From Pimelobacter simplex (GTDB taxonomy: Bacteria > Actinomycetota > Actinomycetes > Propionibacteriales > Nocardioidaceae), in assembly GCF_024662235.1 (NCBI RefSeq), contig NZ_CP096276.1:62001-126000 (forward strand): a DNA stretch of 64,000 bases, given 5' to 3'. Under the pieces are notes generated by a model, which had not been told where the DNA came from, searched no databases, and was given only the letters and a program-made list of their open reading frames with translations. The position numbers were made by a program, and so were the translations under genes. Numbering within the stretch: the stretch's first letter is position 1; the number at the start of each line of letters is the position of its first letter. Shown here piece after piece: positions 34,556 to 51,807 of this stretch.

Positions 34556-35776
34556 ATGGCCGGCATCACGATGGACCACATCGTCAAGAAGTACGGCGAC
34601 GGCTTTCCCGCCGTGAACGACGTCTCGATCGACGTCGCCGACGGCGAGTTCATGATCCTCGTCGGGCCCTCGGGCTGCGGGAAGTCCACGCTGCTGCGGA
34701 TGATCGTCGGGCTGGAGGACATCACCTCCGGCGACATGATCATCGGGGAGCGCCGGGTCAACGACCTGGCGCCGCGCGAGCGCAACCTCGCGATGGTCTT
34801 CCAGAACTACGCGCTCTACCCGCACCTGACGGTCTACGAGAACATCGCCTTCCCGCTGCGCCTGGCCAAGATGCCCGACAGCGAGGTCGACCGGCTGGTG
34901 CGCGACGCGGCCGACACTCTCGAGCTCAACGAGCACCTGGAGCGCAAGCCCGGCAACCTGTCCGGTGGCCAGCGTCAGCGCGTCGCGATGGGACGGGCGA
35001 TCGTCCGCCAGGCCGACGCCTTCCTCTTCGACGAGCCGCTGTCGAACCTCGATGCCAAGCTGCGCGGCCAGATGCGCACCGAGATCGCCCGGCTCCAGAA
35101 GCGGCTCGGCATCACGACCGTCTACGTCACCCACGACCAGACCGAGGCGATGACGCTCGGCGACCGGGTCGCCGTCCTCAAGCGGGGACTGCTGCAGCAG
35201 CTCGCGACCCCGCGCGAGCTCTACGAGAACCCGGGCAACCTGTTCGTGGCCGGCTTCATCGGCTCGCCGCCGATGAACTTCATGCCCGCCACCGTCGAGG
35301 GGACGCGGGTGCAGCTGCCGTTCGGCACCGTCGAGATCCCCGCCGACCGGGCCGAGCGGGCCGCCGGGCGCGGCCTGCTCATCGCGGGCATCCGGCCCGA
35401 GCACTTCGAGGACGCCTCGCTCGCCGACGCCGAGGGGCGGACCGGCTCGACGTTCCGGGCCACCGTCGACGTCGTGGAGTGGCTGGGCAACGAGACCTAC
35501 GCCTACATCCCGTTCGAGTCGCCCGACGAGGTCAAGCAGCAGCTGCTCCAGCTCGAGAAGGACCTCGACGGCGAGGCCCTGCGCACCCAGCTTGTGGTCT
35601 CGCTCGACGGCGCGAGCCGGATCGCCGAGGGCCAGGAGGCCGAGATCTGGGTCGACGGACGCCGGATGCACCTCTTCGACCCGGCCACCGGCGAGAACCT
35701 CACCGTCGACCACGAGCGGGCCGGGCGGATCCCGGGCGCCGAGGTGGCGGCGGCGGATCCCGCGGCGGCGTCCTAG
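34556..35776 (+). CDS. sugC: sugar ABC transporter ATP-binding protein (SugC/MsmK-like)
   Basis: 406-residue ATPase: Walker A GPSGCGKST, signature LSGGQRQRVAMGRA, Walker B AFLFDEPLSNLD, switch His in VYVTHDQTEA, then a MalK-type regulatory OB domain (IAGIRPEHFEDA) with an insert. It drives uptake through the preceding permeases. Its stop codon shares a palindromic CTAG with the convergent hydrolase stop. Confidence 0.9.
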   Translation: MAGITMDHIVKKYGDGFPAVNDVSIDVADGEFMILVGPSGCGKSTLLRMIVGLEDITSGDMIIGERRVNDLAPRERNLAMVFQNYALYPHLTVYENIAFPLRLAKMPDSEVDRLVRDAADTLELNEHLERKPGNLSGGQRQRVAMGRAIVRQADAFLFDEPLSNLDAKLRGQMRTEIARLQKRLGITTVYVTHDQTEAMTLGDRVAVLKRGLLQQLATPRELYENPGNLFVAGFIGSPPMNFMPATVEGTRVQLPFGTVEIPADRAERAAGRGLLIAGIRPEHFEDASLADAEGRTGSTFRATVDVVEWLGNETYAYIPFESPDEVKQQLLQLEKDLDGEALRTQLVVSLDGASRIAEGQEAEIWVDGRRMHLFDPATGENLTVDHERAGRIPGAEVAAADPAAAS

Positions 35777-38443: not shown

Positions 38444-39052
38444 GTGGCCACCGCACCCCGTCCCACGGCCCGCGCGCGCAGCGCGCAGCGCCAGCAGGCG
38501 ATGGTCGACGCCGCCGCCCGCCTCTTGATCGAGGAGGGACCGGACGCGGTCACCCACCGCAAGGTCGCCGCCGCCGCGGGGGTGCCCGCCGGCTCGGCGG
38601 GCTACTACTTCCCGACCCGCCAGGAGCTCTACGCCGCCGCGGTCGCCGCGGCCGAGCAGGTCCGCTCGGCGGGCGCTGCCGAGCGGGCGGCCGCGCTGCC
38701 CCGGCGCCGCCGGTCGGCGACCGCGACCGCCGCCCTGCTGCTGGAGGTGCTCTACGCGCCCGCGCTCGACCGCGCGGTCGTCACCCGTCGCCTCCAGCCC
38801 ATGCTGGAGGCGACGTCGGACCCCGAGCTGCGCCCGATCATGGCCGCCTCGCGGCCCGCCCTCCTGGACGCGCTGCGCGAGACGCTCGACCGGTGCGGCT
38901 GGGGAGCCGTCGGGGCGAGCGCGGACTTCGACCTCGTCGTACGGATGCTCGACGCGGCGCTGCTGTACGGCGCCGCCGCCGGCGACGAGGATCCCGTCGC
39001 CGACGCGGTGGCCGACGTCGCGCGCCTGCTGGAGCTGGTCAGTCGAAGTTGA
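38444..39052 (+). CDS. TetR family transcriptional regulator
   Basis: 202 residues. N-terminal TetR helix-turn-helix: [43 protein letters not shown], where the GSAGYYF variant of the usual YYHF motif is seen. The ligand domain is Ala-rich and unassigned. Leaderless GTG. It likely represses itself and the divergent DUF981 gene. 3' end overlaps glpX by 14 bp on the other strand. Confidence 0.9.
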
Positions 39053-40052
39053 TCGCGCTGAAGCCGCGCAGCTTGGAGAGCTGGTGCTCGGACGTGATGG
39101 TCCGGATCGTGCCGCTGCGCGAGCGCATGACCAGCGACTGGGTCACGGCGCCGCCGCCGCGGTAGCGGACGCCGCGGACGAGCTCGCCGTCGGTGATGCC
39201 CGTGGCGACGAAGAAGCAGTCGTCACCGGTCACCAGGGTGTCGGTGGTGAGGATGTGGTCGGGGTCGAGGTTGTGGCCGGCGTCGATGGCGCGCTGGCGC
39301 TCCTCGTCGTCGGTGGGCCACAGCCGGCCCTGGATCGTGCCGCCCATGGCCTTCATGGCGCACGCGGCGATGATGCCCTCGGGCGTGCCGCCGATGCCGA
39401 GGAGCAGGTCGATGCCGGTGTCGGCGCGGGCGGCCATGATCGCGCCCGCGACGTCGCCGTCGGTGATGAACTTGATCCGGGCGCCGGTCGCGCGGATCTC
39501 CTCGACCAGCTTGTCGTGGCGCGGACGGTCGAGCAGGACGACGGTCACATCGGACGGGTTGGAGCCCTTGGCCTTGGCGACCTGGTGGATGTTCTCGGCG
39601 ACGGGGTAGCGGATGTCGACCAGGTCGGCGGCCTCGGGGCCGGTGACGAGCTTCTCCATGTAGAAGACGGCGGAGGGGTCGTACATCGTGCCGCGCGGGG
39701 CGACGGCCAGGACGGCGACCGCGTTGGCCATGCCCTTGGCGGTCAGCGTGGTCCCGTCGATCGGGTCGACGGCGACGTCGCACTCGGGGCCGGTGCCGTC
39801 GCCGACGGTCTCACCGTTGTAGAGCATGGGGGCGTTGTCCTTCTCGCCCTCGCCGATCACGACGGTGCCGTTCATGCTGACGGTCGAGATCATCACGCGC
39901 ATCGCCTGGACGGCGACGCCGTCGGCGCCGTTCTTGTCACCACGGCCGACCCACCGCCCGGCTGCCATGGCGGCCGCCTCGGTGACCCTCACCAGCTCGA
40001 GAGCGAGGTTGCGGTCGGGGGCGGGCGGCTCCACGGCGAGGGCGTCGTTCAT
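39039..40052 (-). CDS. glpX: class II fructose-1,6-bisphosphatase
   Basis: Gluconeogenic phosphatase, 337 residues. The metal and substrate sites appear as [42 protein letters not shown] and [19 protein letters not shown]. GlpX is the only FBPase class in most actinobacteria. ATG start 7 nt after a TAGGGT -10 box (40060-40065). Lies downstream of modC in the same direction but has its own promoter. Confidence 0.95.
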
Positions 40053-40059
40053 AGGGCGA

Positions 40060-40065
40060 ACCCTA
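40060..40065 (-). promoter_or_regulatory. -10 box of glpX
   Basis: TAGGGT on the minus strand, 7 nt before the ATG, inside the 25-bp gap after modC. Confidence 0.5.
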
Positions 40066-40077
40066 TCGGTCGCTTTC

Positions 40078-41121
40078 TCACTGGGCGTACACGTCGACTT
40101 CGGTCGCCTTGACGACGAACGTCGCGCCGGTGCCCGGTGCGAGTCCCAGCTCGGCGACCGAGGCCACCGTGACGTCCGCCGCGAGCTCGCCCGCGCGCAC
40201 CCGGACGACATCCCCCAGCGGCTCGAGCTCGGTCACCACGACGGCCAGGGCGTTGCGCGGGCTGCCGCCGGGCGGCTCCCGGTGCACGGCGACCGCGGAG
40301 GGGCGGAAGACCGCCACCGCGGGGGCGCCGGGGGCGGGATGGTCGCCGGTCGCGGCGGTGCCGTGCAGGAGCAGGCCGTCCGGACGTCGTACGCCGTCGG
40401 GGGTGGCGACGCCGGAGACCAGGTTGAGCCCCGCGAACCGTGCCGCGAAGGCGCTGCGCGGCCGGGAGAGCACCTCGCTGGTCGGTCCCTGCTCGGCCAC
40501 CCGCCCGTCCTCGACCACGACCACCCGGTCGGCGAGCAGCAGCGCGTCGAGCACGTGGTGGGTGACGATGACGGCCGTGCGGTCGGCGAGGACACGGCGC
40601 AGGAGCGTCCGCAGCGCCGGGGCGACCGCCACGTCGAGCGCCGCCATCGGCTCGTCGAGCAGCAGCAGGCGGGGGTCCGCGGCGAGCGCCCGGGCGACCG
40701 CGACGCGCTGCGCCTGGCCGCCGGAGAGCTGGGCCGGCTTGCGGCCGGCGAGGTCGGCGGCGTCGACCTCGGCGAGCCAGTGCTCGGCGGCGGCGCGGGC
40801 CGCGCGGCGTCCGGTCCCGGTGCTGCGCGGGCCGAAGGCGACGTTCTCCAGCACCGTCAGGTGGGGGAACAGCAGCGGGTCCTGCGCCAGCAGCGCCGTA
40901 CGACGCGCGTGCGGCGCGACCCAGCGCCCGGGGCCGGTGAGCTCCTCGCTGTCGAGCACGATCCGCCCGGCGTCGGGGCGCAGCAGGCCGCCGAGGACCG
41001 AGAGCGTCGTGGACTTGCCGGCGCCGTTGGGGCCCAGCAGCGCGACGGTCTCGCCGTCCGCGATCTCGAAGCTGACGTTGACGTCACGTTCAGCGACGGT
41101 CACGTCCACCAGCGCGCTCAC
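40078..41121 (-). CDS. modC: molybdate ABC transporter ATP-binding protein
   Basis: 347 residues. Walker [10 protein letters not shown] (30-38), signature QLSGGQAQR (131-139), Walker [15 protein letters not shown]-loop [10 protein letters not shown], and a C-terminal Mop/TOBE oxyanion-binding domain (about 285-347). Powers molybdate import through ModB. Start overlaps the modB stop (ATGA). Confidence 0.92.
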
Positions 41122-41912
41122 AACGCACCCCGCGGCCGGACCAGGCCGATCACCAGCACGGCGACGGCGACCAGGACCAGCGACATCGCCACGGCGGCGT
41201 CGGCATCGGTGACCCGGAGGTTGTAGATGAGCAGCGGCAGCGTGCGGGTGGTGCCCTCCAGGCTGCCGGCGAAGGTGATGGTGGCGCCGAATTCACCCAG
41301 GGAGCGGGCGAACGCGAGCACGGCGCCCGAGGCCAGGCCCGGGAGCACGAGCGGCAGCGTGACCCGGCGCAGCACCGTCGTGGGGCGGGCGCCGAGCGAG
41401 GCCGCCACGACGTCGTACCGCTCGCCGGCGGTGCGCAGGGCGCCTTCCAGGCTGACCACGAGGAAGGGAAGCGACACGAACGTCTGGGCGAGGACGACGG
41501 CGACGGTGCTGAACGCGATCTTGATCCCGAGCGCCTCGAGCTCGGAGCCGAGCAGGCCCTGGCGGCCGAACGCGGACAGCAGGGCGATGCCGCCGACGAC
41601 GGGCGGCAGCACGAGCGGGAGCAGCACGAGCGAGCGCAGCACCCCCAGCCAGCGGGCCTCGCTCCGGGCGAGGACCGTGGCCAGGGGGATGCCGAGCACC
41701 AGGCAGAGCAGGGTGCTGGCGGTCGACGTACGGATGCTGAGCCAGAGGGCCGAGCGGGCCCCCTCGGACGTGATCAGCGAGAGGAAGTCGCCCCACGCGA
41801 TCCGCGTCGTCATCGAGGCGACCGGCAGCACCACGAACACGGCGGCCAGCAGCGCCGGCCCGAAGAGCCAGCGCGGCAGGCCGACGTGCCGGGTGCGCCC
41901 GCCGCGACTCAC
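41118..41912 (-). CDS. modB: molybdate ABC transporter permease
   Basis: 264 residues, six helices. [22 protein letters not shown] is the ModB signature region, and the ATPase-docking loop is [20 protein letters not shown], followed by [17 protein letters not shown]. Middle gene of modABC, overlapping both neighbours by four bases. Confidence 0.92.
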
Positions 41913-42700
41913 GGGGTGGGCGCGCCGAAGCCGGCCTGCTCGAAGACCTTCTGACCCTCACCGAGGACGAGCTCGATCCACTGCTGCGCGAGGTCGGCGT
42001 GCTGGGCGTCCTTGACCACGACGATCGGGTAGTGGTTGACGATGTCGGCCGCCTCGGGGAACTCGATGCCCTGGACCTTGTCGCCGGCCGCGGTCACGTC
42101 GGTGACGTAGACCAGGCCGGCGTCGGCCTCGCCGGACTCGACCTTGGCGAGGACGTCGGTCACCGACTGCTCCTCGCTGACCGGCTTGAAGTCCAGCCCG
42201 GCCGCCTCGGCGACCTTGGCCGACGCGCTGCCGCACGGGACCTCGGGCTGGCACAGCACCAGGTTGACGTCCTTCTTGGTCAGGTCGGCGAGACCCTTGA
42301 TGCCGGCAGGGTTGCCCGGCGGGACCGCGATCATGAGCGTGTTGGTCGCGAACTCCTGGGGCTCGCCCGCGGTGAGACCGGCGGCGACGAGCTTGTCCAT
42401 GTTGGCGGTGTCGGCCGAGGCGAACACGTCGGCCGAGGCGCCCTCGGTGATCTGCGCGACCAGGTCGGAGGAGCCGCCGAACGACAGCTTGACGTCGACG
42501 TCGGAGTGCGCGGCCTCGTAGGTCTTCTCCAGCTCCTCGAACGTCTTGGTCAGCGACGCGGCGGCGAACACGGTGAGCTCGGTCTTGCCGCCGCTCTTGG
42601 TGTCGCCCCCCTTGTCGCCGTCGTCACCGCAGGCGGCGAGGGGGAGGGCGAGCAGGACGGCGGCGCTCGCGGCGCCGAGCCGGAGCCAGGTGGTCTTCAT
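41909..42700 (-). CDS. modA: molybdate-binding lipoprotein
   Basis: 263-residue periplasmic-type binding protein tethered by lipobox LAAC (Cys near 24). Ligand-binding segments are [39 protein letters not shown] and GLVYVTDV. Binds molybdate and probably tungstate outside the membrane. Start codon shares one base with the stop of the HTH-TOBE gene upstream (TGATG). Confidence 0.93.
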
Positions 42701-43116
42701 CAGGACTGCTTCCTCGGGGAGACGGGTCGTTCGACGACGACGGTGGTGGACTTGACCGACGCGATCGCCCGGACGCCGGGCTCGAGGCCCAGCTCGGCCG
42801 CGGCCTCCGCGCTCATCAGCGACACGACCCGGTAGGGACCGCAGACCATCTCGACCTGGGCCATCACCGTGTCGGCGACGACCCGGGTGACGATCCCGGT
42901 CATCCGGTTGCGCGCGCTGACCTCACCCGAACGGGTGCGCGTGCGGTCGGCCTCGTCGACCAGCGACGCGGCCAGCACGGCGAGGTCCGGGCCGGGGATG
43001 ACGGTGCGTCCGTCGACGGTCGCACTCGCGACCCGGCCGGCGTCGATCCAGCGGCGCACGGTGTCGGTGCTGACGCCGAGGAGGTCAGCCGCCTCGGAGA
43101 CGCGATAGTCGGCCAT
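42700..43116 (-). CDS. HTH-TOBE (Mop) molybdate-responsive regulator, mod operon
   Basis: 138 residues. A MerR/excisionase-like helix-turn-helix (YRVSEAADLLGVSTDTVRRW) joined to one TOBE/Mop domain (SARNRMTGIVTRVVADTVMAQVEMVCG, then SLMSAEAAAELGLEPG), which binds molybdate or tungstate. It is the first gene of the modABC operon and so a likely autoregulator. A paralogue lies 460 bp upstream. ATG at 43116 has GGGTGG in front; an in-frame ATG at 43134 lies inside the palindrome and is less likely. Confidence 0.9.
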   Translation of the reverse strand: MADYRVSEAADLLGVSTDTVRRWIDAGRVASATVDGRTVIPGPDLAVLAASLVDEADRTRTRSGEVSARNRMTGIVTRVVADTVMAQVEMVCGPYRVVSLMSAEAAAELGLEPGVRAIASVKSTTVVVERPVSPRKQS

Positions 43117-43125
43117 GACACCACC

Positions 43126-43143
43126 CTGCCGCATCTGCGGCAG
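43126..43143. promoter_or_regulatory. 18-bp perfect palindrome before the mod operon
   Basis: CTGCCGCA-TC-TGCGGCAG, an 8-2-8 perfect inverted repeat, 9 bp upstream of the HTH-TOBE ATG. Strong candidate operator for one or both HTH-TOBE proteins; as RNA it would form a hairpin next to the ribosome binding site. Confidence 0.65.
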
Positions 43144-43173
43144 AAAAGCGCCACCGGGTGTTGCATCCGCTGC

Positions 43174-43578
43174 TCAGCAGTCGGCGCGGACTCCCTTGAC
43201 GGCGGCCAGCAGTCCCTCGCGCGCCTCGGTCACCACGGCACCGTCGACCGGCCGGCCCTTGGTGCTGCGGCGGGCCTGGGCGAGCAGGTCGGCGACGGCC
43301 TGCTCGGCGTTCTCGAGCTGGGCCCGCTCGTCGCCGGACACGGTGGCCTTGGCCGCGCTCAGCGCGGTCTTGACCGCGGTGAGGGTACGCCGGGCGGTCG
43401 CCGGGTCCTCGCTGATCGTGGCGATGGCGTTCTCCGCCTGGCGCTGGGCGTCGTCGACCGCGGTCTGGGCGATCGCGCAGGTCGGGCTGAGCTGCTTGCG
43501 CTGCTCGTCGGTGCAGCCCGCGGCGAGGACGCCGAGGACCAGCGTGGCCGCCGCGAGGCGCGCCGTGCGTCGTCCCAT
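43174..43578 (-). CDS. small lipoprotein, unknown function
   Basis: 134 residues. Signal peptide with lipobox LAAGC (Cys 22), then an Ala/Glu/Arg-rich helical body with a Cys at 34 and a C-terminal Cys. I do not recognise a family. It is the last gene of the tungstate-type operon, its ATG overlapping the upstream HTH-TOBE stop. It faces the outside of the membrane, where the TupA-like protein works. Confidence 0.7.
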   Translation of the reverse strand: MGRRTARLAAATLVLGVLAAGCTDEQRKQLSPTCAIAQTAVDDAQRQAENAIATISEDPATARRTLTAVKTALSAAKATVSGDERAQLENAEQAVADLLAQARRSTKGRPVDGAVVTEAREGLLAAVKGVRADC

Positions 43579-43961
43579 CAGGCCTCGACGATCACGGTCG
43601 TCGACTTCACCACGGCGGTCGCCGGCTTGCCGGGCTCCAGGCCCAGGTCGTCGGCGGCCTCGCGGCTCATCAGCGAGACGATCCGGTAGTCACCGCACGC
43701 CAGCTCGACCTTGGCCATCACGCCGTCTCGCTCGACCGAGACGACGACGCCGGCGAGCCGGTTGCGGGCGCTGGAGGTGGCGGTGCGCCCGGTCAGCTTG
43801 GCGGTCAGCGCCGGCAGCTGGTCCGAGCGCAGCACGCGCTGGTTGTTCTGGCGCTCGAACACGACGCGGCCCTCGGACTCCCAACGGCGCAGCGTGTCGA
43901 CGCTCACGCCCACTGCCTGGGCGACCTCACCGATGCGCAAGTACTCCGACACGTCGCTCAT
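43578..43961 (-). CDS. HTH-TOBE (Mop) regulator, tup-type operon
   Basis: 127 residues, paralogous to the regulator of the mod operon: YLRIGEVAQAVGVSVDTLRRWESEGRV helix-turn-helix, then a TOBE domain (SARNRLAGVVVSVERDGVMAKVELACG, SLMSREAADDLGLEPG). Likely senses tungstate or molybdate and controls one or both oxyanion operons. One base separates it from the ATPase stop. Confidence 0.88.
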   Translation of the reverse strand: MSDVSEYLRIGEVAQAVGVSVDTLRRWESEGRVVFERQNNQRVLRSDQLPALTAKLTGRTATSSARNRLAGVVVSVERDGVMAKVELACGDYRIVSLMSREAADDLGLEPGKPATAVVKSTTVIVEA

Positions 43962-43962
43962 C

Positions 43963-44919
43963 CTAGGGCGCTCCCGTCGCCGCCGGGGCGGGGAACCGGA
44001 CCGCGCCGTCGAGCCGGAACCGGACGGGGTCGCCGAGACCGACGCTCCCGGTCGGCCGGACGGTCCGCACGGCGCCGTGCGCTCCGGTGACCTCGATCCG
44101 GACGCCGTCCTGCTGGGGGACCAGCCGGGTGACGGTGCCGGTGAGCTCGCCGGCGGCGTCGAGGACGACGTGCGGGGGACGGGTCAGGACCAGCTCGTCG
44201 CCGAGGACCAGCTCGCCGTCGTACCCGAGGAAGCGGGCGACCTCGGCGCTCGGCGGGGCGGCGAGGAGCGCGTCCGGACCGCCCGCGGCGACGATCCGGC
44301 CCTCGATCATGACGACCAGCCGGGTCGCCAGCGCCCAGGCCTCCGCGCGGTCGTGGACGACGACGAGGACGCCGCCCGCCGCGGTGCGCAGCGCCGACCC
44401 CGTGTCCTCGCACAGCGCGGCGCGGGTCTCGGCGTCGAGGCCGGCGAACGGCTCGTCGAGGAGCAGCAGGTCGGGCCGGAGCGCGATCCCACGGGCGACG
44501 TGGACCCGGCGCCGCTCCCCGCCCGACAGGGTCGTCGCGTGGCGCCGGGCGAGGTGCGCGGCGCGCATCTGCTCCAGCGCCTCCATCGCCCGCGCCCGCC
44601 GCTGCGACCGCGGGACGCCCCACCAGGCGAGCGCGAGCTCGACGTTCGCGCGCACCGACCGGCTCGCCAGACCCGGGGCCTGCAACACGGAGGCGACGCG
44701 TCCGGTCCGCTCGACCCGGCCGCCGTGGGCGCGGACCACGCCGCCGACCGCTTCGAGCAGGCTGCTCTTGCCCGCGCCGTTCGGGCCGAGCACCGCCACG
44801 ACCTCGCCGCGGTCCAGGGTCAGGTCGACGCCGTGGACGACGCTCGCCCGGCCGCGGCGTACCTGCAGGGCGTCGAGGGTGAGGAGCCGCTCGCCGCTCA
44901 CGTCGACCATGTCGTTCAT
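43963..44919 (-). CDS. tupC: tungstate-type ABC transporter ATP-binding protein
   Basis: 318 residues. Walker [10 protein letters not shown] (45-53), signature TLSGGERRR, Walker B LLLLDEPFAGLD, H-loop VVVHDRAEA, and a C-terminal TOBE-like domain (about 245-310). Companion of the TupB-like permease, whose stop overlaps its start. Calling it tungstate rather than molybdate rests on the TupA and TupB partners. Confidence 0.82.
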   Translation of the reverse strand: MNDMVDVSGERLLTLDALQVRRGRASVVHGVDLTLDRGEVVAVLGPNGAGKSSLLEAVGGVVRAHGGRVERTGRVASVLQAPGLASRSVRANVELALAWWGVPRSQRRARAMEALEQMRAAHLARRHATTLSGGERRRVHVARGIALRPDLLLLDEPFAGLDAETRAALCEDTGSALRTAAGGVLVVVHDRAEAWALATRLVVMIEGRIVAAGGPDALLAAPPSAEVARFLGYDGELVLGDELVLTRPPHVVLDAAGELTGTVTRLVPQQDGVRIEVTGAHGAVRTVRPTGSVGLGDPVRFRLDGAVRFPAPAATGAP

Positions 44920-45635
44920 GTCGCCCGCCTCGGCGGTCCGGGCCGCCGCCGGCCGTACTGGAGCATGGTGAGCAGCGCGACCACGACGAGGATCAGGCCG
45001 AGCAGCACGATGCCGATCGCGATCGCCTCGGCCCAGTGCGCGGCGTTGACCCGCGCCAGCGTCGCGCTGGCCAGCGTCTGGGTCAGGCCGTCGATATTGC
45101 CGCCGACCAGGACGACGGCGCCGACCTCCGAGAGCCCCGAGCCGATGGCGGCGATGACCGCGGCGAGGATCCCGGTCCGCGCCTCGCGGGCCGCGAGCGC
45201 GCCGACCCGCAGCCGGCCCGCGCCGAACGCGCGGGCCTGGTCGAGCAGGCCGGGGGAGACGTCGCGCACCGCGGAGGCGCTGAGGGCCACGATGATCGGC
45301 AGTGCGAGAACCGTCTGGGCGACGTAGACGCCGTTGAGCGTGAACAGCAGGTGCAGGCGGCCCAGCGGCCCGACCGGGAACATGAGCAGGACCAGGAACA
45401 GCCCCACGATCACCGGCGGCAGGCCCAGCCCGGCGTTCGCGAGCACCAGCCCGACGCCGCGTCCGCGGAACCGGCCCAGCCCGAGCGCCAGCCCGATCGG
45501 CAGCCCGATCACGAAGGCGACGAGCGTCGGCAGCAGCGCCACCTTGAGCGTGGTCAGCGTCAGGTCGAGCAGCCACGGCTCGCGGCCGAGCACCAGGTCC
45601 CAGGCCTGGCCGAAGCCGTCGGTCCAGAAGTTCAC
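44916..45635 (-). CDS. tupB: tungstate-type ABC transporter permease
   Basis: 239 residues with about five helices. GLGLPPVIVGLFLVLLMFPVGP is the TupB/WtpB-like signature, and the docking loop reads ARAFGAGRLRVGALAAREARTG, followed by AIGSGLSEVGAVVLVGGNI. GTG start overlaps the DUF2149 stop. Forms the membrane channel used by the TupA-like binding protein at the operon head. Confidence 0.85.
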   Translation of the reverse strand: MNFWTDGFGQAWDLVLGREPWLLDLTLTTLKVALLPTLVAFVIGLPIGLALGLGRFRGRGVGLVLANAGLGLPPVIVGLFLVLLMFPVGPLGRLHLLFTLNGVYVAQTVLALPIIVALSASAVRDVSPGLLDQARAFGAGRLRVGALAAREARTGILAAVIAAIGSGLSEVGAVVLVGGNIDGLTQTLASATLARVNAAHWAEAIAIGIVLLGLILVVVALLTMLQYGRRRPGPPRRAT

Positions 45636-45976
45636 GGAGTCGGTCCGGCGGAGGGCTTCGGGACGACGTAGACGAGGCGGCCGTCGTTGAGCCGGTAGAC
45701 CTGGCCCACCTGCTCGCCCTGGCCGACCACCGACGGCGCATCGGTCGGTACGTCGGACACCTCCGCGTCCGGCGGCACCGTGATCGAGCCCGGGGGCGGC
45801 TGCTGGGCCGGTGCGCCGTCCTTGGTGAGGGTGTCGGCCAGGTTGAGCGAGGACAGCGCGGCGAGCAGGAAGCCGACCGACAGCACGATCCCGAGGTCGA
45901 ACAGGTTGACCAGGCCGTCGAGCGGGTCGCCGGCCCGGTCCTCGTGGCGCCGGGCGCGCGGGTTGACCCGGATCAC
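45632..45976 (-). CDS. DUF2149 protein, candidate ExbD/TolR-like stator partner
   Basis: 114 residues with one helix (about 26-45) after a basic cytoplasmic N-terminus. The helix begins VNLFDLGIVLSVGF, with Asp27 where ExbD/TolR proteins carry their essential proton-binding Asp. A Pro-rich linker leads to a small outside domain (VYRLNDGRLVYVVPKP). GTG start overlaps the stop of the ExbB-like gene (GTGA). Function is officially unknown; the ExbD-like role is inferred from topology, the Asp and the neighbour. Confidence 0.75.
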   Translation of the reverse strand: MIRVNPRARRHEDRAGDPLDGLVNLFDLGIVLSVGFLLAALSSLNLADTLTKDGAPAQQPPPGSITVPPDAEVSDVPTDAPSVVGQGEQVGQVYRLNDGRLVYVVPKPSAGPTP

Positions 45977-46629
45977 CGGACGGGCTCCTCGGCCGGGGCG
46001 GTCTGGTCCGCCGGGGCGGTGAGGATCGCGGCGACGTACTCGAGGTCGGAGAAGTCCTGGCCGTAGATCCGGTCCCGGGCCAGCGAGATCGCGAAGGCCC
46101 CCGCGCCGACCAGCAGGCCGAGCACGGTGATGCTGAACGCGAGGCGCAGGTTGTCCGAGAGCGCGGCGATGTCGCCGGCGGCCAGCCCTTCGAGTGCCGG
46201 CGAGAGGGGGATCAGCGTGCCCATCAGCCCGAGCGCCGGGCCGGTCCGCACCAGCAGCCGGGTCCGCCCGAGCCGGCGCTGCCGGCCGAAGTCGAAGTCG
46301 GCGAGCTGCTTGGCCATCCGTGCCTCGGCCCCCGGGGTCCCGGCGTCCCGCGCGAACGAGGCGAGCACCGCCCCCATCGCCGGGCTCCACGCGACGGCGC
46401 GCAGCGCCTGCGCCATCGCGTCCCGGTCGCCCGCGTCGAGCGCCCCGCGCGCCCGGTCCGCCGCCTGCACCAGCGCCGGCAGCCGGCGCTGCAGCCGCCG
46501 CGCCGTCTCGGCGGCGAACGAGCCCAGCTCGACCACCACCCACGCGAGCGAGGCGAGCGCGAGCACCACGACGGGGATCTCGAGCGCCTCCGAGGCCCGG
46601 AAGATCGTCTCGTAGAGCTGGTCCTTCAT
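45973..46629 (-). CDS. MotA/TolQ/ExbB family proton channel protein
   Basis: 218 residues, three helices (about 18-40, 127-147, 162-184). The family core is TGPALGLMGTLIPL (129-142) and LRLAFSITVLGLLVGAGAF (161-179) with the conserved Thr168. The cytoplasmic loop of about 85 residues is typical. Such proteins form pentamers that use proton flow to move a partner in the cell envelope. Overlaps both neighbours by four bases. The presence of an ExbB in a monoderm oxyanion-transport operon is unusual. Confidence 0.85.
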   Translation of the reverse strand: MKDQLYETIFRASEALEIPVVVLALASLAWVVVELGSFAAETARRLQRRLPALVQAADRARGALDAGDRDAMAQALRAVAWSPAMGAVLASFARDAGTPGAEARMAKQLADFDFGRQRRLGRTRLLVRTGPALGLMGTLIPLSPALEGLAAGDIAALSDNLRLAFSITVLGLLVGAGAFAISLARDRIYGQDFSDLEYVAAILTAPADQTAPAEEPVR

Positions 46630-47942
46630 GAGGTGGCCTTCCTGGTGCGGAGTACGTCGCGCAGCTCTCCGGCCGCGCCGACGAGGACGAGGAGCCCCGC
46701 CAGCAGCGCGAACCACACGCCCGTGGCGATCCGGAACGGGTGCTTGGGCGGCACGACGGTCGAGCTGGTCGCCGGGCCCTCGGTGGGTGCGGGGGCGTCC
46801 GCGCCGCCGGTCGTCGTACCGGAGCTGAGGAGGAGGCCGCGGACGGTGCCGTCGTCGGGGTCGGGGTCAGGTGCGGGGGGCGGTGAGGTCGTCGCCGTGC
46901 CGGCGGGTTCGGTCGGTCCGGTCGGGCCCGGTGCGCCGTCGGTCCCGGTGCCTCCGGGGGTCGCGTGCCGGCCGCCCGGGGGGCCCTTGGACTCGCCGTT
47001 GCCGTCGCCCTTGCCGCCACCTCCGCCGGGTTGGACCGGGACGGTGGGGGTCTCGGTCGGGGGTGGTGCGTCCCCGACCGTGAAGGTCGCGAGGGCGCGG
47101 CCGTAGGAGTCGCGGTCGTCGGTGACGACCAGGCCGATCGTCCGGCCGCCCTTGGTCGTCCAGGTCGCCGATGCCGTCGCCGGGTTCTGCGGGTCGGCCG
47201 CGCCGGCGCTCCCGAGCTGCCAGCGGTAGGTGAGCCGCGACGGGTACGGCGCGCCCGGCACGTCGGCGCGGAACCGGACCTTCTGGCCGACGGCCGGGTG
47301 GGCCGGGGTCACCGTGATCTCCGGGGTGAGGACGCGGCCGGTGGTGCTGAGGGTCAGCTCGAGGGCGATCCGTCCTCCCGGCCGCAGGTCGTCGTCGCCG
47401 TTGACGTCGTCGGTGCCGGGGCGCAGGGGACGGATGTAGGAGACGGCGTCGGAGTCGGCGAGGTACACGACCGGTTCGAGGCCGTCGGCGAAGCCGCCGC
47501 TGCCTGCGGGGCCGAGGTCGGCCTTGCCGAGCGTGGAGATGTAGTCGTTCTGGGGGTGGGGGAGCTTCACGATCGTCACGTCCGACGGCTGCAGTCCGTC
47601 GAGTGCGGCGCCGGGCCGGGTCAGGTGCTCGATCAGGTCGCGGACCGGCAGCGCACTCGTGGCGGTCACCCGGTCCTCGACCGGGCCCCCGGGGACGCGA
47701 CGGATGTCGTAGTCGGGGTTGTGCTCACCCGCCTCGGCCGCCCAGGCCCTGATGTCGCTGCCCGGCACCAGCACGGTCCGGCCCTCGGGCCCGGTCAGCG
47801 TGACGATCACGCACCCGTCGACGGCGCTGCCCGGGCAGGGCCCGGCGGCCGCCGGGTCCGCCGTCATGCCGACGAGCGACGCGGTCGCCCCCAGCCCGAG
47901 GGCCAGGAGCGACCACGTCAGCCGTCGCGTGCGCTTGCTCAG
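46626..47942 (-). CDS. PKD-type membrane-anchored surface protein, apparent CTG start
   Basis: 438 residues: signal peptide (SKRTRRLTWSLLALGLG, cleavage after AAA near 33), an N-terminal domain of about 165 residues that I do not recognise (CPGSAVDGCVIVTLTG opening), a PKD-like beta domain (about 208-290; VRFRADVPG, LTYRWQLG, LVVTDDRDSYG), a Pro/Gly/Thr-rich linker (291-400), one helix (404-424) and a short basic tail. So the protein spans from cell surface to membrane. No ATG, GTG or TTG opens the signal peptide; a CTG at 47942 overlaps the TupA stop as CTGA, exactly like the NTGA overlaps of the other operon genes. Confidence 0.78.
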   Translation of the reverse strand: MSKRTRRLTWSLLALGLGATASLVGMTADPAAAGPCPGSAVDGCVIVTLTGPEGRTVLVPGSDIRAWAAEAGEHNPDYDIRRVPGGPVEDRVTATSALPVRDLIEHLTRPGAALDGLQPSDVTIVKLPHPQNDYISTLGKADLGPAGSGGFADGLEPVVYLADSDAVSYIRPLRPGTDDVNGDDDLRPGGRIALELTLSTTGRVLTPEITVTPAHPAVGQKVRFRADVPGAPYPSRLTYRWQLGSAGAADPQNPATASATWTTKGGRTIGLVVTDDRDSYGRALATFTVGDAPPPTETPTVPVQPGGGGGKGDGNGESKGPPGGRHATPGGTGTDGAPGPTGPTEPAGTATTSPPPAPDPDPDDGTVRGLLLSSGTTTGGADAPAPTEGPATSSTVVPPKHPFRIATGVWFALLAGLLVLVGAAGELRDVLRTRKATS

Positions 47943-49618
47943 CGGGCCGTCCGCTTCTTGGGCGAGGTGGCGGGGGTGCTGGTGCCGGGGTTGGTGTACT
48001 TCACGTAGTAGGTGAAGCGCTTGCCCTTGACCCGGACCTTCGTGCTCCAGGTCTTCGCGCCCTTGCGGAGCGCGACGGTGGTCAGGGCGCGGAACTTCTT
48101 CGCGCCGGCCACCTTCACGTAGACGACGACCTTGGCCTTCGCGCTGCCGGCGGCGGGCGTGAGCTTGCCGTGGAAGCGGGTCTTGGCGCCGGCCTTGGCC
48201 GCCTTCGCGGTGACCGTGCCCTTGGCGAGCGGGGCAGCCGTGACGTTGACCGTGCCGAGGGAGGTCTCGGTCGGGGCGAGCAGGTCGCCGAAGATCGGGT
48301 CGAGGGTGGTGTTCTCGATCTTGGTGATCTGGTCGGTGACGACGGCGTATCTCATCGACGCGGTCGGCTTGTAGGTCAGGGTGAAGGCGCCGGTGGCATC
48401 GGTGGTCGCGGTGGCGACGGTCGTGGCGGCGCTGCCGCCGGTCGGCGTACCGACGAGCTTGACGGGGACGAAGTCCAGCTTCGGCGTGCCCGGTACGACA
48501 TTGCGCAGGGTGCCGGTCACCTTGAGCGTCTGGCCGGAGACGAGCGAGGCCGGGACGGTCGAGGTGGTGACGGCCGGGGCCGCGGAGGGCAGGAAGGGCG
48601 CGTCGCCGGTGTCGTTCAGGTAGCCGCCGACGGCGGTCTGGCCGGCCGGGGACGTCACCCAGTTGAGGAAGGCCGTGGCCGCCGCGGTGTTGATGGAGAC
48701 GCCGGGGTTGGCGGTGAACTTCGCCGGGTTGATGGCGTAGGCGTGGAACGAGTTGACCAGGAGGTCGGGGCCGCCGATCGCGTTGGGGGCGTTGTCCCGG
48801 GTCAGGATCGTCAGGTTCGTGGCCTGCGCGGTCGACTGGAGGTAGTTGAACGTGCCGCGGTCGGTGAAGACGTAGCAGCTGTTCGCCGGGCGCGGCGAGA
48901 AGTTGCAGGTGCTCGCCGCGAGGATGTTCGGGGCCTGGGTCAGGTCCGTGCGCTTGTACCAAGCGGGCAGGTCGGCGACCGTGCCGCACGCGCCGTTGCC
49001 GGTGGTGGGCGCCATGCCGCCGCCGTCGGAGGCGCTGATCGTGCAGAGCGGTACGCCGGTCGTCTCGGCCCAGATCGCGTGCTCCTGCACGGTGGTGCCG
49101 GGGGTGCCACCGCGCGAGACGAAGGTCGCCGTACCGGCGGCTCCGGCGGTGGCGATGTCCTGGAAGGTGCGGACGATGTCGTTGCCGTGGCCCGCGCTCG
49201 AGATGCCGGCGGGGTCGGCGGCCGGGCCGCCGAGGATGTAGTCGCCCCAGAAGATCGCGCGACCGTACGACTCGAGCGAGTAGCCCTCGTCGACGAACTG
49301 GTTCTCCAGCGCCGCCGCGTGGACGATCATCGCGCTCGCCGCGCCGGACTTGGCGTAGGCGATCGCGGCGCCCGTGCCGCGGCTGACGTAGTTGAGCGTG
49401 TACTGCGGGTACGCCGCCTCGAACTGCGGCTTGAGGATCGTCTGGACCAGGAACGAGTCGTAGACGTCGCTCGTCCCGACGACCGTCAGGGTCGCGTTGT
49501 CGTCGGCGTGGGCCGCCGGGGCGATGGCGGTCGCGGTCAGGGGGAGGGCCAGCACGGCGCTCGCCGCGGCCAGCCGGCGCAGCAGGGTGGTGCGCTTCTT
49601 CGTTGGTGTGGACACCAT
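47939..49618 (-). CDS. TupA-like oxyanion-binding protein with C-terminal Ig-like domains
   Basis: 559 residues from ATG 49618 (GTG 49615 also possible). Signal peptide with cleavage after AHA (37), then a TupA-type binding domain (42-345): VVGTSDVYDSFLVQTILKP, VSRGTGAAIAYAKSGAASAMIVHA, FVSRGGTPGTTVQEHAIW, CYVFTDRGTFNYL and FLNWVTSPAGQTAVGGY match the family order. Two extra beta domains follow (about 350-460 and 462-545), ending in a very basic PKKRTAR tail. Ordinary TupA proteins stop at about 280 residues, so the extension is notable. No lipobox; four extra Cys (192, 211, 238, 248) may form disulfides. Confidence 0.83.
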   Translation of the reverse strand: MVSTPTKKRTTLLRRLAAASAVLALPLTATAIAPAAHADDNATLTVVGTSDVYDSFLVQTILKPQFEAAYPQYTLNYVSRGTGAAIAYAKSGAASAMIVHAAALENQFVDEGYSLESYGRAIFWGDYILGGPAADPAGISSAGHGNDIVRTFQDIATAGAAGTATFVSRGGTPGTTVQEHAIWAETTGVPLCTISASDGGGMAPTTGNGACGTVADLPAWYKRTDLTQAPNILAASTCNFSPRPANSCYVFTDRGTFNYLQSTAQATNLTILTRDNAPNAIGGPDLLVNSFHAYAINPAKFTANPGVSINTAAATAFLNWVTSPAGQTAVGGYLNDTGDAPFLPSAAPAVTTSTVPASLVSGQTLKVTGTLRNVVPGTPKLDFVPVKLVGTPTGGSAATTVATATTDATGAFTLTYKPTASMRYAVVTDQITKIENTTLDPIFGDLLAPTETSLGTVNVTAAPLAKGTVTAKAAKAGAKTRFHGKLTPAAGSAKAKVVVYVKVAGAKKFRALTTVALRKGAKTWSTKVRVKGKRFTYYVKYTNPGTSTPATSPKKRTAR

Positions 49619-49622
49619 CCGG

Positions 49623-49676
49623 ACCCTAGGGCATTTACCTAGGAAGTACGTAGCAAATGTTGCCAAGAGTGCAACA
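49623..49676. promoter_or_regulatory. promoter and candidate operators of the tup-type operon
   Basis: On the minus strand TAGGGT (49623-49628) ends 7 nt before GTG 49615 and 4 nt before ATG 49618. CCTAGG occurs twice (49625-49630 and 49638-49643), 7 bp apart and overlapping this -10 box. Upstream, TGTTGC (49658-49663) and GCAACA (49671-49676) form a perfect 6-7-6 inverted repeat, with another GCAA at 49653-49656. These are plausible binding sites for the HTH-TOBE proteins. Confidence 0.5.
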
Positions 49677-49752
49677 ACCGTTGGGTAGGTTCGTCGTCGT
49701 GCGCCCTCCCGGGTGTGTGCTTCGTGGGGCCGGCTGGGACACTGGGGGCGAG

Positions 49753-50337
49753 ATGAGCACGCAGCAGACCGAGTCCACCGGCCGTCCGGGCCGCTACCAG
49801 CGCTCCTTCAGCGGTCTCATCTCCTCGCTGCTGGTGACGGTCCTGGTCATCGGCGGCCTCCTCTACTTCATGGGCGCCTTCCGCAGCTCCACGGAGATCA
49901 AGCCGGAGGCGGTCGACTACCTCGAGACCGTGCAGTCGGCCCAGCAGGCCGGGCTGACGCCGGTCTACCCGAGCGCACTGCCCGCGGGCTGGATCTCGAC
50001 CGGCGTCGACGTGACGCCGTCCGAGGAGGACCCGGTCTTCATGGTCCGGATGCTCACTGACAAGGAGCGCTTCGTCGCCGTCCGGCAGGAGCGTGCGACG
50101 TCGTCGGCGCTGCTGACCAAGTGGGTCGACGAGGAGACCCAGGCGGGTGCGGGCTACACCGTCCCCGCGTCGGTCGCGGCGCCGGTCGCGCGGGAGTGGA
50201 AGGGCTACACCGACAAGGGCGGTGACGCGGCGTACGTCGCGAAGGTCGGCGAGAACACCGTGCTGGTGTTCGGCTCGGCGTCGAAGCAGGAGCTGCAGTC
50301 GATCGTCGACGCGCTCGTGACGACGAAGATCCGCTAG
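49753..50337 (+). CDS. DUF4245 family membrane protein
   Basis: 194 residues: short cytoplasmic N-terminus, one helix (about 22-42, ISSLLVTVLVIGGLLYFMGAF), then an extracytoplasmic domain with YPSALPAGWISTGVDVTP. This is the actinobacterial DUF4245 family, commonly found next to xseA/xseB and glpX in related genomes. Function unknown. ATG preceded by GGGGGCGAG. Divergent from the tup-type operon; its stop shares CTAG with the convergent xseB stop. Confidence 0.83.
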   Translation: MSTQQTESTGRPGRYQRSFSGLISSLLVTVLVIGGLLYFMGAFRSSTEIKPEAVDYLETVQSAQQAGLTPVYPSALPAGWISTGVDVTPSEEDPVFMVRMLTDKERFVAVRQERATSSALLTKWVDEETQAGAGYTVPASVAAPVAREWKGYTDKGGDAAYVAKVGENTVLVFGSASKQELQSIVDALVTTKIR

Positions 50338-50579
50338 TCCTCGTCGTCGTCGTCCGCCTCCGCGGACTCGTCGTCGAGCACCGCGTCGAGCCGTGCCCGG
50401 ACCCCGTCGATCCAGCCCTGGCAGACGGTGGCCAGCGCCTCGCCGCGCTCCCACAGGGCCAGTGACTCCTCGAGCGTCGTACCGCCGGCCTCGAGCTGCC
50501 GCACGACCTCGACCAGCTCGGCGCGGGCGTCCTCGTAGGACAGCTCCTCGGTGGTCGCGGTCCCGGGCTCGTCAGTCAT
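50334..50579 (-). CDS. xseB: exodeoxyribonuclease VII small subunit
   Basis: 81 residues, helical. [36 protein letters not shown] is the XseB core, followed by a very acidic tail (EADDDDED). Binds the XseA large subunit to form the single-strand DNA nuclease. ATG overlaps the xseA stop by 8 bp. Confidence 0.93.
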
Positions 50580-51807
50580 GGTTCTCCTCGATCGACTCGG
50601 TCGTGGTGGCGGTGACGTGGATGCGGCCGTCGGCGACGCGCACCGAGAGCGGGGCGTCGGCGGCGACGTCATGGACAGAGGTGACGACGCGGCCGGCGTC
50701 GTCCTGGAGGACGGCGTACCCGCGGCGCAGGGTGGCCAGCGGGGACAGCGCGCGGACCCGGGCACGGCGGTGGTCGAGGTCGTCGGCGGCGCGGTCGAGC
50801 TGCCACTCGAGCTGGCGGCGGATCCGGGTGCGCCAGTCGTCGAGCTCGTCGAGGCGGGCGTCGAGGAGGGTGCCGGGGTGGGCGAGTGCGGGGCGGGAGC
50901 GGATCGCGTCGAGCTGGGCCTGCTCGCGGTCGACGCGGGTGCGTGCGGCGCGGCGCAGGGCCTCGCGGGCGCGGTCGAGCATCGCGCGCTCCTGGGCGAT
51001 GTCGGGGACGATCAGCTTGGCCGCGTCGGTCGGGGTCGAGGCGCGGACGTCGGCGACGAGGTCGAGCAGCGGGCTGTCGGGCTCGTGGCCGATCGCGGAG
51101 ACGACGGGGGTGCGGGCGGCGGACACGACCCGGATCAGGCCCTCGTCGGAGAAGGGCAGCAGGTCCTCGACCGAACCGCCGCCGCGGGACACGACGATCA
51201 CGTCGACGGCGGGGTCGGCGTCGAGGCGTCGTACCGCCTCGATGACCTCGGCGGCCGAGCGCGCGCCCTGCATCGAGGCGTAGGCGGTGGTGAAGGCGAC
51301 GGCGGGCCAGCGGCGGGTGGCGTTCTCGACGACATCGCGCTCGGCGGCCGAGCCGGGCGCGGTGACCAGGCCGACCCGGGTCGGCACGGTCGGCAGCCGG
51401 CGCTTGCGCTCGGGCGCGAAGAGTCCCTCGGCAGCGAGGAGCTGACGGCGGCGCTCGAGGCGGGCGAGCAGCTCGCCGAGGCCGACCATCCGGATCTCGC
51501 GGGCCTGGAGCGAGAGCGTCCCCCGGTTGGCGTAGTACGACGGCCGCGCGTGGATGACGACGCTCGCCCCCTCGGTCACCGGGGTCGGCAGGCTGTCGAA
51601 CATCACCCGCGAGCAGGTGACCGGCACCGAGATGTCCGCGACCGAGTCGCGCAGCGTCAGGAACACCGTGGCCAGGCCGGGACGCCGGCTCACCTGGGTC
51701 ACCTGGCCCTCGACCCACACCGCCCCGAGCCGGTCGACCCACCCGGAGATCGCGTTCGCGATCGCCCGGACCGGCGCCGGCTTCTCGAGGGACGTCTCCA
51801 GGGCCAC
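50572..51807 (-). CDS. xseA: exodeoxyribonuclease VII large subunit
   Basis: 411 residues. N-terminal OB-fold ([25 protein letters not shown]), then the catalytic domain with [39 protein letters not shown] and [28 protein letters not shown], and a long helical C-terminal region. Degrades single-stranded DNA in repair. Leaderless GTG start: TAGTGT then 6 nt. Divergent from the PfkB kinase gene. Confidence 0.95.

Follow-up and report, generated by a model that had tools for sequence, protein, structure and literature searches.

To our knowledge, ExbB-type motors coupled to nutrient import have been described only together with an outer membrane. In the TonB-ExbB-ExbD and TolA-TolQ-TolR systems, TonB and TolA are described as binding their motors through a helix with the SHLS motif and as having a motor box or D-box (PMC12204202, PMC10907165). 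A pairing of ExbB with a different subunit, DUF2149, is also already known: an ExbB-like protein and DUF2149 are annotated in the hmu operon of Bacteroidota (PMC10434189), and COG4744 has been linked to TolQ in methanogens (PMC9425974). For the Hmu system (hmuYRSTUV), HmuS is described with a signal peptide and a C-terminal membrane helix (PMC13227078, PMC12583661), HmuU is named ExbB-like and HmuV is placed in no known family (PMC13227078), and the two are held to help power the outer membrane receptor (PMC12583661). Here we analyzed a stretch of 64,000 nucleotides from the actinobacterium Pimelobacter simplex (NZ_CP096276.1, positions 62,001 to 126,000; hereafter the window), in which genes for a PKD-domain surface protein, an ExbB homolog and DUF2149 (the trio) lie inside a TupABC-like operon for tungstate or molybdate uptake.

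The locus shares features with each of the described systems. As far as we could compare with the published descriptions, it is like TonB-ExbB-ExbD and TolA-TolQ-TolR in having a PF01618 motor and a putative transducer composed of a membrane helix, a strand comparable to the motor box, a proline-rich linker and a globular domain, and it is like the TonB system in probably serving the import of a scarce nutrient. It differs in that the genome shows no match to a TonB-dependent receptor and the B subunit is DUF2149 rather than PF02472; moreover, the PKD protein is anchored C-terminally with a GxxxE motif, whereas TonB, for which the genome itself was not searched, is anchored N-terminally with SHLS. 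The Hmu system and the CobN-DUF2162-ExbB-DUF2149 loci of anaerobes likewise place ExbB beside DUF2149, but their partner is a CobN-type dechelatase, a family that we did not find among the eight genes of the window operon, and the Bacteroidota have an outer membrane receptor. The binding protein, permease, ATPase and conserved oxyanion residues are those of TupABC; in contrast to TupABC, however, the TupA of the window is long, lacks a lipobox and bears extra beta domains, three genes are inserted, and scores fall far below the equivalog cut-offs. Searches of the open-licence PMC literature by title and abstract returned no system linking a tungstate importer, a PKD domain or DUF4430 with ExbB/TolQ, nor did we find there a description of a link to ABC importers without an outer membrane, of a reverse-topology partner or of missing lipid anchors.

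Eight genes run on the minus strand from 49618 to 43174, in the order TupA, PKD protein, ExbB, DUF2149, TupB, TupC, HTH-TOBE regulator and lipoprotein (Table 1). The genes of ExbB, DUF2149, TupB and TupC each overlap the preceding gene by 4 bases, the HTH-TOBE gene starts 1 base after that of TupC and is itself overlapped by 1 base by the lipoprotein gene. The initial annotation of this DNA had listed the same eight genes in one direction, with overlaps of 1 to 4 bases or a 1-base gap, and all are present as listed. Position 49676, where it had placed the start, is not an in-frame start: the ATG of TupA lies at 49618 and the furthest in-frame start is a TTG at 49666. The most likely start of the PKD gene is a CTG at 47942, which overlaps the TupA stop by 4 bases, since it retains the signal peptide that the first ATG (47867) would remove. 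The initial annotation had also regarded a TonB-type setting as unexpected in this organism, and the genome agrees: it contains no match to PF00593 (TonB-dependent receptor) and, at E up to 0.001, none to PF02472 (ExbD), DUF2149 included. Apart from this ExbB, PF01618 matches a single protein of the genome, a MotA encoded next to MotB and a flagellar hook gene (recognized by eye). The fixed order of motor and surface protein inside a tup operon suggests a TonB-like energy step where none would be expected.

To assess how far this arrangement is conserved, we surveyed DUF2149 in 396 genomes of the phylum, 341 genomes of the family of the window and 146 genomes of a second family. DUF2149 is rare, with 13 phylum genomes (10 over the cut-off), 20 family genomes and 34 second-family genomes (33 over the cut-off) positive. 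A pattern scan with a DUF2149 alignment, which is blind to TupA, returned 76 actinobacterial loci, whose contexts were called by script as Tup in 21, trio alone in 22, the ExbB and DUF2149 pair alone in 17, FecCD in 9, ECF in 3 and toroid without ECF genes in 2, while no ExbB was called in the remaining 2. Judged by gene content, the conserved unit is the trio of PKD protein, ExbB and DUF2149. ExbB and DUF2149, which the initial annotation had expected to co-occur with tup genes, are mostly found away from them: tup genes stand at 8 of the 21 DUF2149 loci of the first family, window included, and are absent from 13, and they are absent from 55 of the 76 actinobacterial loci, including the 2 without a called ExbB. 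All eight Aeromicrobium loci among the 76 consist of the three-gene run with no importer. Three further loci (L065-L067), with DUF2149 matches under the cut-off beside unrelated genes, were discarded as false positives.

Where the tup genes are present, the order is nearly fixed. Of the 21 Tup loci, 18 show TupA-PKD-ExbB-DUF2149-TupB as called; the gene caller overlooked TupB in one more (L089), where it is present in the same contig stretch as L054, and the other two (L096, L122) are truncated within the PKD gene. The same order occurs in Nocardioides, Marmoricola, Galbitalea, Solirubrobacterales, Solirubrobacter, Conexibacter and a Frankiaceae assembly. Nocardioidaceae and Solirubrobacterales belong to two classes, so the recurrence of the order in both is not due to chance. 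In a tree of ExbB and DUF2149 (75 rows, quick search), the Tup label requires 6 changes, of which at least 3 are forced by well-supported branches. The second family, in which 40 fetched stretches cover 41 of the 46 listed DUF2149 matches, gave 13 Tup contexts by script and 12 by reading (L230 is doubtful, with TupB several genes away), followed by trio alone (10), toroid (7), ECF (4), pair (4) and FecCD (2); in L216, labeled toroid, the gene before ExbB is a PKD gene. Many of these contigs were already among the 76 loci, and the second family is therefore not an independent sample.

Several loci showed additional genes or copies. Five Tup loci (L086, L119, L120, L122 and L135) carry a second TupB and a terminal protein of one cluster, which in L119 is Peripla_BP_4 lipoprotein-like. 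L138 was scored as trio alone, but immediately upstream it has an SBP_bac_11 binding protein and a long gene resembling a fusion of permease and ATPase, which may represent another type of importer. In L063 and L064 (genome G364) the ExbB and DUF2149 matches lie beside very long frames (2576 and 1458 aa) that may be a further type of partner. Genomes G759 and G760 have four DUF2149 matches each, and their differing contexts (Tup, trio alone and toroid among those fetched) suggest parallel motors with separate partners.

We then looked at the linkage from the side of TupA, scoring at most 4 candidates per genome in the family. The long TupA subfamily of the window occurs in 10 of the 341 family genomes, and 9 of these have the trio. 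The whole set is present in 8 (the window and seven others); in G729, TupA, the PKD protein and the start of ExbB stand at a contig end, with nothing further in the other contig end, and G576 has TupA, TupB, TupC and the regulator with no match to the trio. In the phylum, TupA-like proteins occur in 92 of 396 genomes, window included, and 5 of the other 91 also have DUF2149 (one below the cut-off), always on different contigs. The relation is thus one-way, in that the long TupA subfamily nearly always has the trio and the trio has other partners too. The distance matrices of the six proteins correlate with one another over the Tup loci (Mantel r 0.55 to 0.91, P-value 0.001 each), and ExbB follows TupB (r 0.86, n = 21) about as it follows DUF2149 (r 0.88, n = 22).

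The TupA of the window consists of a Sec signal without lipobox, a PBP domain and a C-terminal extension that by eye looks like two beta (Ig-like) domains and has no family match. It is homologous to solved tungstate-binding proteins across both lobes, although weakly in the second. The oxyanion site of Desulfovibrio TupA, which is reported to hold tungstate at picomolar strength, is described as a TTTS motif with His59, Arg118, Thr124 and Asp170 (PMC5517513). In an alignment of 20 TupA of the subfamily, one of which is cut short, Thr49, His100, Arg169, Thr175 and Asp253 are identical in 19 out of the 19 rows with letters, while position 50 holds Ser in 12 of these rows and Thr in the other 7; the TTTS motif reads VGTS in the window. 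Since both TupA and TupB fall below their equivalog cut-offs (Table 1), tungstate or molybdate is the likely, rather than the proven, substrate.

The TupA proteins linked to the trio lack a lipobox. By one and the same rule, a lipobox was found in 0 of 22 trio-linked TupA and in 21 of 29 canonical TupA, the latter being the fetched best matches of the phylum-wide search. The remaining 8 have a cysteine at the end of the signal by eye, so that all 29 do; a stricter expression also found 21 of the 29, but a different 21. As a control, 10 out of 10 PF01497 proteins of the window's own genome were positive. Two loci without TupA (L096, L122), one that is cut off (L101) and two in which the binding protein lies behind a HugZ-like domain (L145, L149) were left out of the scoring. 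Among the FecB-type proteins beside the module, 1 of 8 has a lipobox (L114, with an unusual box). That binding proteins beside the module mostly have no lipobox would be a new observation. The TupA of G576 (L079), which belongs to the same subfamily, has a shorter C-terminus and offers a natural control for the trio; it carries a lipobox by the main rule and none by the stricter expression.

Thr138 and Thr168 of ExbB are invariant in 21 aligned sequences and align, with a weak hhalign score, with Thr148 and Thr181 of Escherichia coli ExbB, which line the pore in helices 2 and 3. The window ExbB is only 50-74% identical to the 15 aligned relatives with a PKD partner. In the single helix of DUF2149, Asp27 is invariant in 16 sequences and aligns with Asp25 of ExbD, again with a weak profile score (probability 5%).

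The protein encoded before ExbB resembles a mirror image of TonB, with the order of the motifs reversed. By hydropathy and motif content, the PKD protein of the window is composed of a signal peptide, an N-terminal domain without recognized fold, a PKD domain, a Pro/Gly-rich linker, a VRGLLL strand and a transmembrane helix that ends in GAAGE. Its PKD_4 match scores 18.7 bits, under the cut-off of 27. All but one of the 41 aligned members, the window protein among those that match, hit PKD_4 with E values up to 0.01. Searched against Pfam, the 41 members gave only PKD and three single stray matches, leaving the N-terminal domain unmatched, and matches to PDB sequences center on the PKD region. 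At both PKD and toroid loci, the product of the gene before ExbB combines an ectodomain with a Pro/Gly-rich linker and a single C-terminal helix, and in most cases a signal peptide is visible as well; in L140 and L146 such a protein is encoded by the first gene of the ECF operon. This helix has a terminal GxxxE in 44 of 48 PKD proteins, that of the window among them, in 6 of 7 toroid proteins and in the single toroid fragment, compared to 36 of 1,228 hydrophobic segments of other proteins, a rate that is only a guide since this control comprises all hydrophobic segments and not single-pass proteins. The toroid miss is a gene that does not adjoin ExbB; among the PKD misses, L083 has one extra residue between G and E and L128 ends early. 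The strand motif [VI]xGx[LVI] precedes the helix in 46 of 48 PKD and 6 of 6 toroid proteins, compared to 199 of 829 random windows. PKD and toroid are unrelated ectodomain families that share the helix and strand motifs.

Most loci with only the pair lack such a partner, as no protein with GxxxE lies nearby in 15 of the 17 and one doubtful segment occurs in each of the other two (L092, L123); in L113, one of the 15, the contig end truncates a PKD gene that follows DUF2149. A clade of 14 loci (L092, L099, L100, L103, L110, L112, L115-L117, L123, L129, L132, L134 and L144) has no convincing partner nearby and shares conserved surroundings on the opposite strand; its partner may be encoded elsewhere in the genome.

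The trio is also linked to other ABC importers; at these FecCD and ECF loci, families were checked in representatives, and the other FecCD loci were grouped by sequence clustering. L104 holds PF01497, FecCD and an ATPase, and PF01497 recurs in L133, L139 and L145. Together with HtaA in L133 and HugZ-like proteins in L104 and L145, as in the HtaA-HmuTUV system of Gram-positive Actinobacteria, these contents indicate that the FecCD-linked loci likely serve heme uptake. We know of no ExbB or DUF2149 in the HtaA-HmuTUV system of Corynebacterium. The ECF locus L140 encodes a squalene-cyclase-like toroid, a DUF4430 lipoprotein, a CbiQ-like protein, an ATPase and an S component. In L142 and L231 (Patulibacter), whose contigs have the same length, two ExbB-DUF2149 pairs lie in tandem behind a toroid protein and an ECF-type importer.

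At three other loci (L055-L057), a CobN-like protein, ExbB and DUF2149 occur with a small membrane protein between, which in L056 is DUF2162, and no ABC importer was seen beside the pair. The CobN-like protein of L056 matches HmuS (9d26) with 438 bits. Of the best 120 of 774 HmuS/CobN-like homologs, 116 have a C-terminal helix, which mostly ends in GYF or similar; some of these homologs carry the names of methanogens, organisms that have no outer membrane. We tried GxxxE as a universal docking motif and rejected it: all three HmuS-like proteins of our loci have it, but only 7 of the 116 homologs with a C-terminal helix do, so the motif is restricted to PKD and toroid partners. The VxGx matches of the three HmuS-like proteins appear to lie in or at the helix and were not counted.

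How these parts may work together is suggested by their order and motifs. In the interpretation that we favor, with a probability of roughly 0.55, the trio acts as a proton-driven transducer module for ABC importers that take up scarce metal cofactors in monoderm bacteria, in this case the tungstate/molybdate importer. ExbB and DUF2149 would form a motor of the MotA/ExbB type in the cytoplasmic membrane, as their family and conserved residues indicate, and let protons pass. The PKD protein would dock on this motor through its C-terminal helix (GxxxE) and juxtamembrane strand (VxGxLL), much as TonB does with its SHLS helix and motor box but in reversed topology, and its ectodomain, carried on the long Pro/Gly linker, could reach into the wall. 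Because the TupA signal lacks a lipobox, TupA would have to be recruited. Moved by protons, the PKD protein would bring loaded TupA to TupBC or aid the release of the tightly held oxyanion, and TupBC, as is usual for its family, would then import it with ATP. Given the picomolar binding of tungstate reported for Desulfovibrio TupA (PMC5517513), proton energy could be spent either on delivery across a thick wall or on freeing the ligand. The initial annotation had proposed that a proton-moved PKD protein presents or releases loaded TupA; the missing lipobox and the conserved helix motif fit this, while the motion and the contact are inferred. Its placing of the stator genes within the tup operon is supported, as they are a conserved part of it, but the motor is not tungstate-specific, since the trio also stands with FecCD and ECF importers or alone.

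Several observations weigh against our interpretation. The profile comparisons of DUF2149 with ExbD/TolR and of ExbB with ExbB/TolQ, which used only two reference rows, are weak (probability 5%, E about 0.007), so the ExbD-like role of DUF2149 is merely suggested by position and pairing, and the assignment of the motor residues depends on which family the proteins belong to. The Glu of GxxxE is missing in L089 and L153, Tup loci that share a clade, the HmuS-type partners lack the motif as a family, so that it is not universal, and the Mantel test leaves shared species history in. Finally, 22 of the 76 loci hold the trio without a recognized importer beside it and 17 hold only ExbB and DUF2149. 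These two groups, together with the importer-free loci of Aeromicrobium, speak for a different explanation, in which the trio is an autonomous surface machine, for instance for work on the wall or on surface proteins, that is merely co-transcribed with an independent importer. We consider this unlikely, although it is the most serious of the alternatives: the trio keeps a constant position between TupA and TupB in Nocardioidaceae and Solirubrobacterales, the few other TupA-like genomes with DUF2149 have it on other contigs, the distances of TupB and ExbB correlate, trio-linked TupA proteins lack the lipobox, and the trio is separately linked to FecCD and ECF importers.

It is also conceivable, though improbable, that ExbB and DUF2149 form a gating or sensing proton channel that tunes the importer to the proton motive force and exerts no force on the PKD protein. 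The direct overlap of the DUF2149 and TupB genes speaks for such a channel; yet the gene next to ExbB encodes, for two ectodomain families that are not related, a C-terminally anchored protein with conserved helix and strand motifs, which is what a transducer would be expected to show, and the trio is also present without an importer. Incomplete Ton systems of monoderm Actinobacteria have been called likely non-functional in a survey that, as described, used PF02472 for the B subunit (PMC12204202), and a DUF2149 system would be missed by that query. That ExbB and DUF2149 are such a degenerate Ton remnant is highly improbable given that the two motor threonines and the DUF2149 aspartate are invariant in spite of the divergence of ExbB, that gene order is kept, and that two genomes belonging to the same family carry four DUF2149 matches apiece.

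Downstream of the tup operon, after a gap of 39 bases and on the same strand, the window holds a canonical mod operon with a second HTH-TOBE gene, which the initial annotation did not mention (Table 1). The HTH-TOBE regulators of the two operons have identical domain sets, so the 12 genes may be a co-regulated oxyanion cluster. The sequence GCCCTAGG precedes the HTH-TOBE gene of the tup operon (43962-43969) and tupA (49625-49632), with a third copy at 35772. We rejected it as an operator because 3 matches compare with 1.19 expected, and at least 3 occur in 12 of 100 shuffles, which is not significant. A search of 39000-51000 against Rfam gave no match.

Table 1. Genes of the tup operon and of the neighboring mod operon, with positions in the window
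Feature	Position	Strand	Evidence
TupA-like tungstate/molybdate-binding protein, 559 aa	47939..49618	-	PF12849 (PBP_like_2) 63 bits; NCBIfam TupA 65 bits (equivalog cut-off 400); PDB chains 3muq, 3lr1, 5my5; ATG start
PKD surface protein, proposed force transducer	46626..47942	-	PKD_4; topology by hydropathy; C-terminal motifs; CTG start inferred
ExbB/TolQ/MotA-family protein, 218 aa	45973..46629	-	PF01618 (MotA_ExbB) 27.2 bits (curated cut-off 22.9); T138, T168
DUF2149 protein, single TM helix, proposed ExbD-like motor subunit	45632..45976	-	PF09919 52.7 bits (cut-off 27.1); Asp27
TupB-like ABC permease	44916..45635	-	NF038017 (ABC_perm1) 169 bits; NF041773 TupB 117 bits (equivalog cut-off 320)
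TupC-like ABC ATPase	43963..44919	-	PF00005 (ABC_tran) 89.7 bits
MerR-type HTH + TOBE/Mop regulator, molybdate/tungstate-binding type	43578..43961	-	PF03459 61.1 bits; PF00376 38.1 bits; TIGR00638 59 bits
Small lipoprotein	43174..43578	-	LAAGC lipobox read in sequence; no family above cut-off
Adjacent canonical mod operon, outside the trio system	40078..43134	-	HTH-TOBE, ModA, ModB, ModC
mod HTH-TOBE	42700..43134	-	
ModA	41909..42700	-	TIGR01256 modA 120.8 bits, over cut-off; lipobox LAAC
ModB	41118..41912	-	TIGR02141 modB 220.5 bits, over cut-off
ModC	40078..41121	-	Position and ABC sequence only

A broader reading, which we put forward tentatively, is that ExbB and DUF2149 are a general proton-powered transducer of cells that lack an outer membrane, on which different C-terminally anchored ectodomains can be exchanged, namely PKD, toroid and HmuS-type dechelatases. 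Such a transducer would supply steps of import or metal release with proton-motive energy, in the case of tungstate, of heme and possibly of corrinoids. Under this broader reading, TonB-like energization would not be tied to outer membranes. At the level of gene content, what lies beside three kinds of ABC importer in monoderm bacteria is a conserved putative motor whose B subunit is of another family, together with a proposed transducer of reversed topology. If the proposed role in importing scarce metal cofactors is correct, it would give DUF2149 a function, assign the pair in hmu operons and in methanogens a role that can be tested, and offer a reason why some Gram-positive binding proteins lack a lipid anchor.

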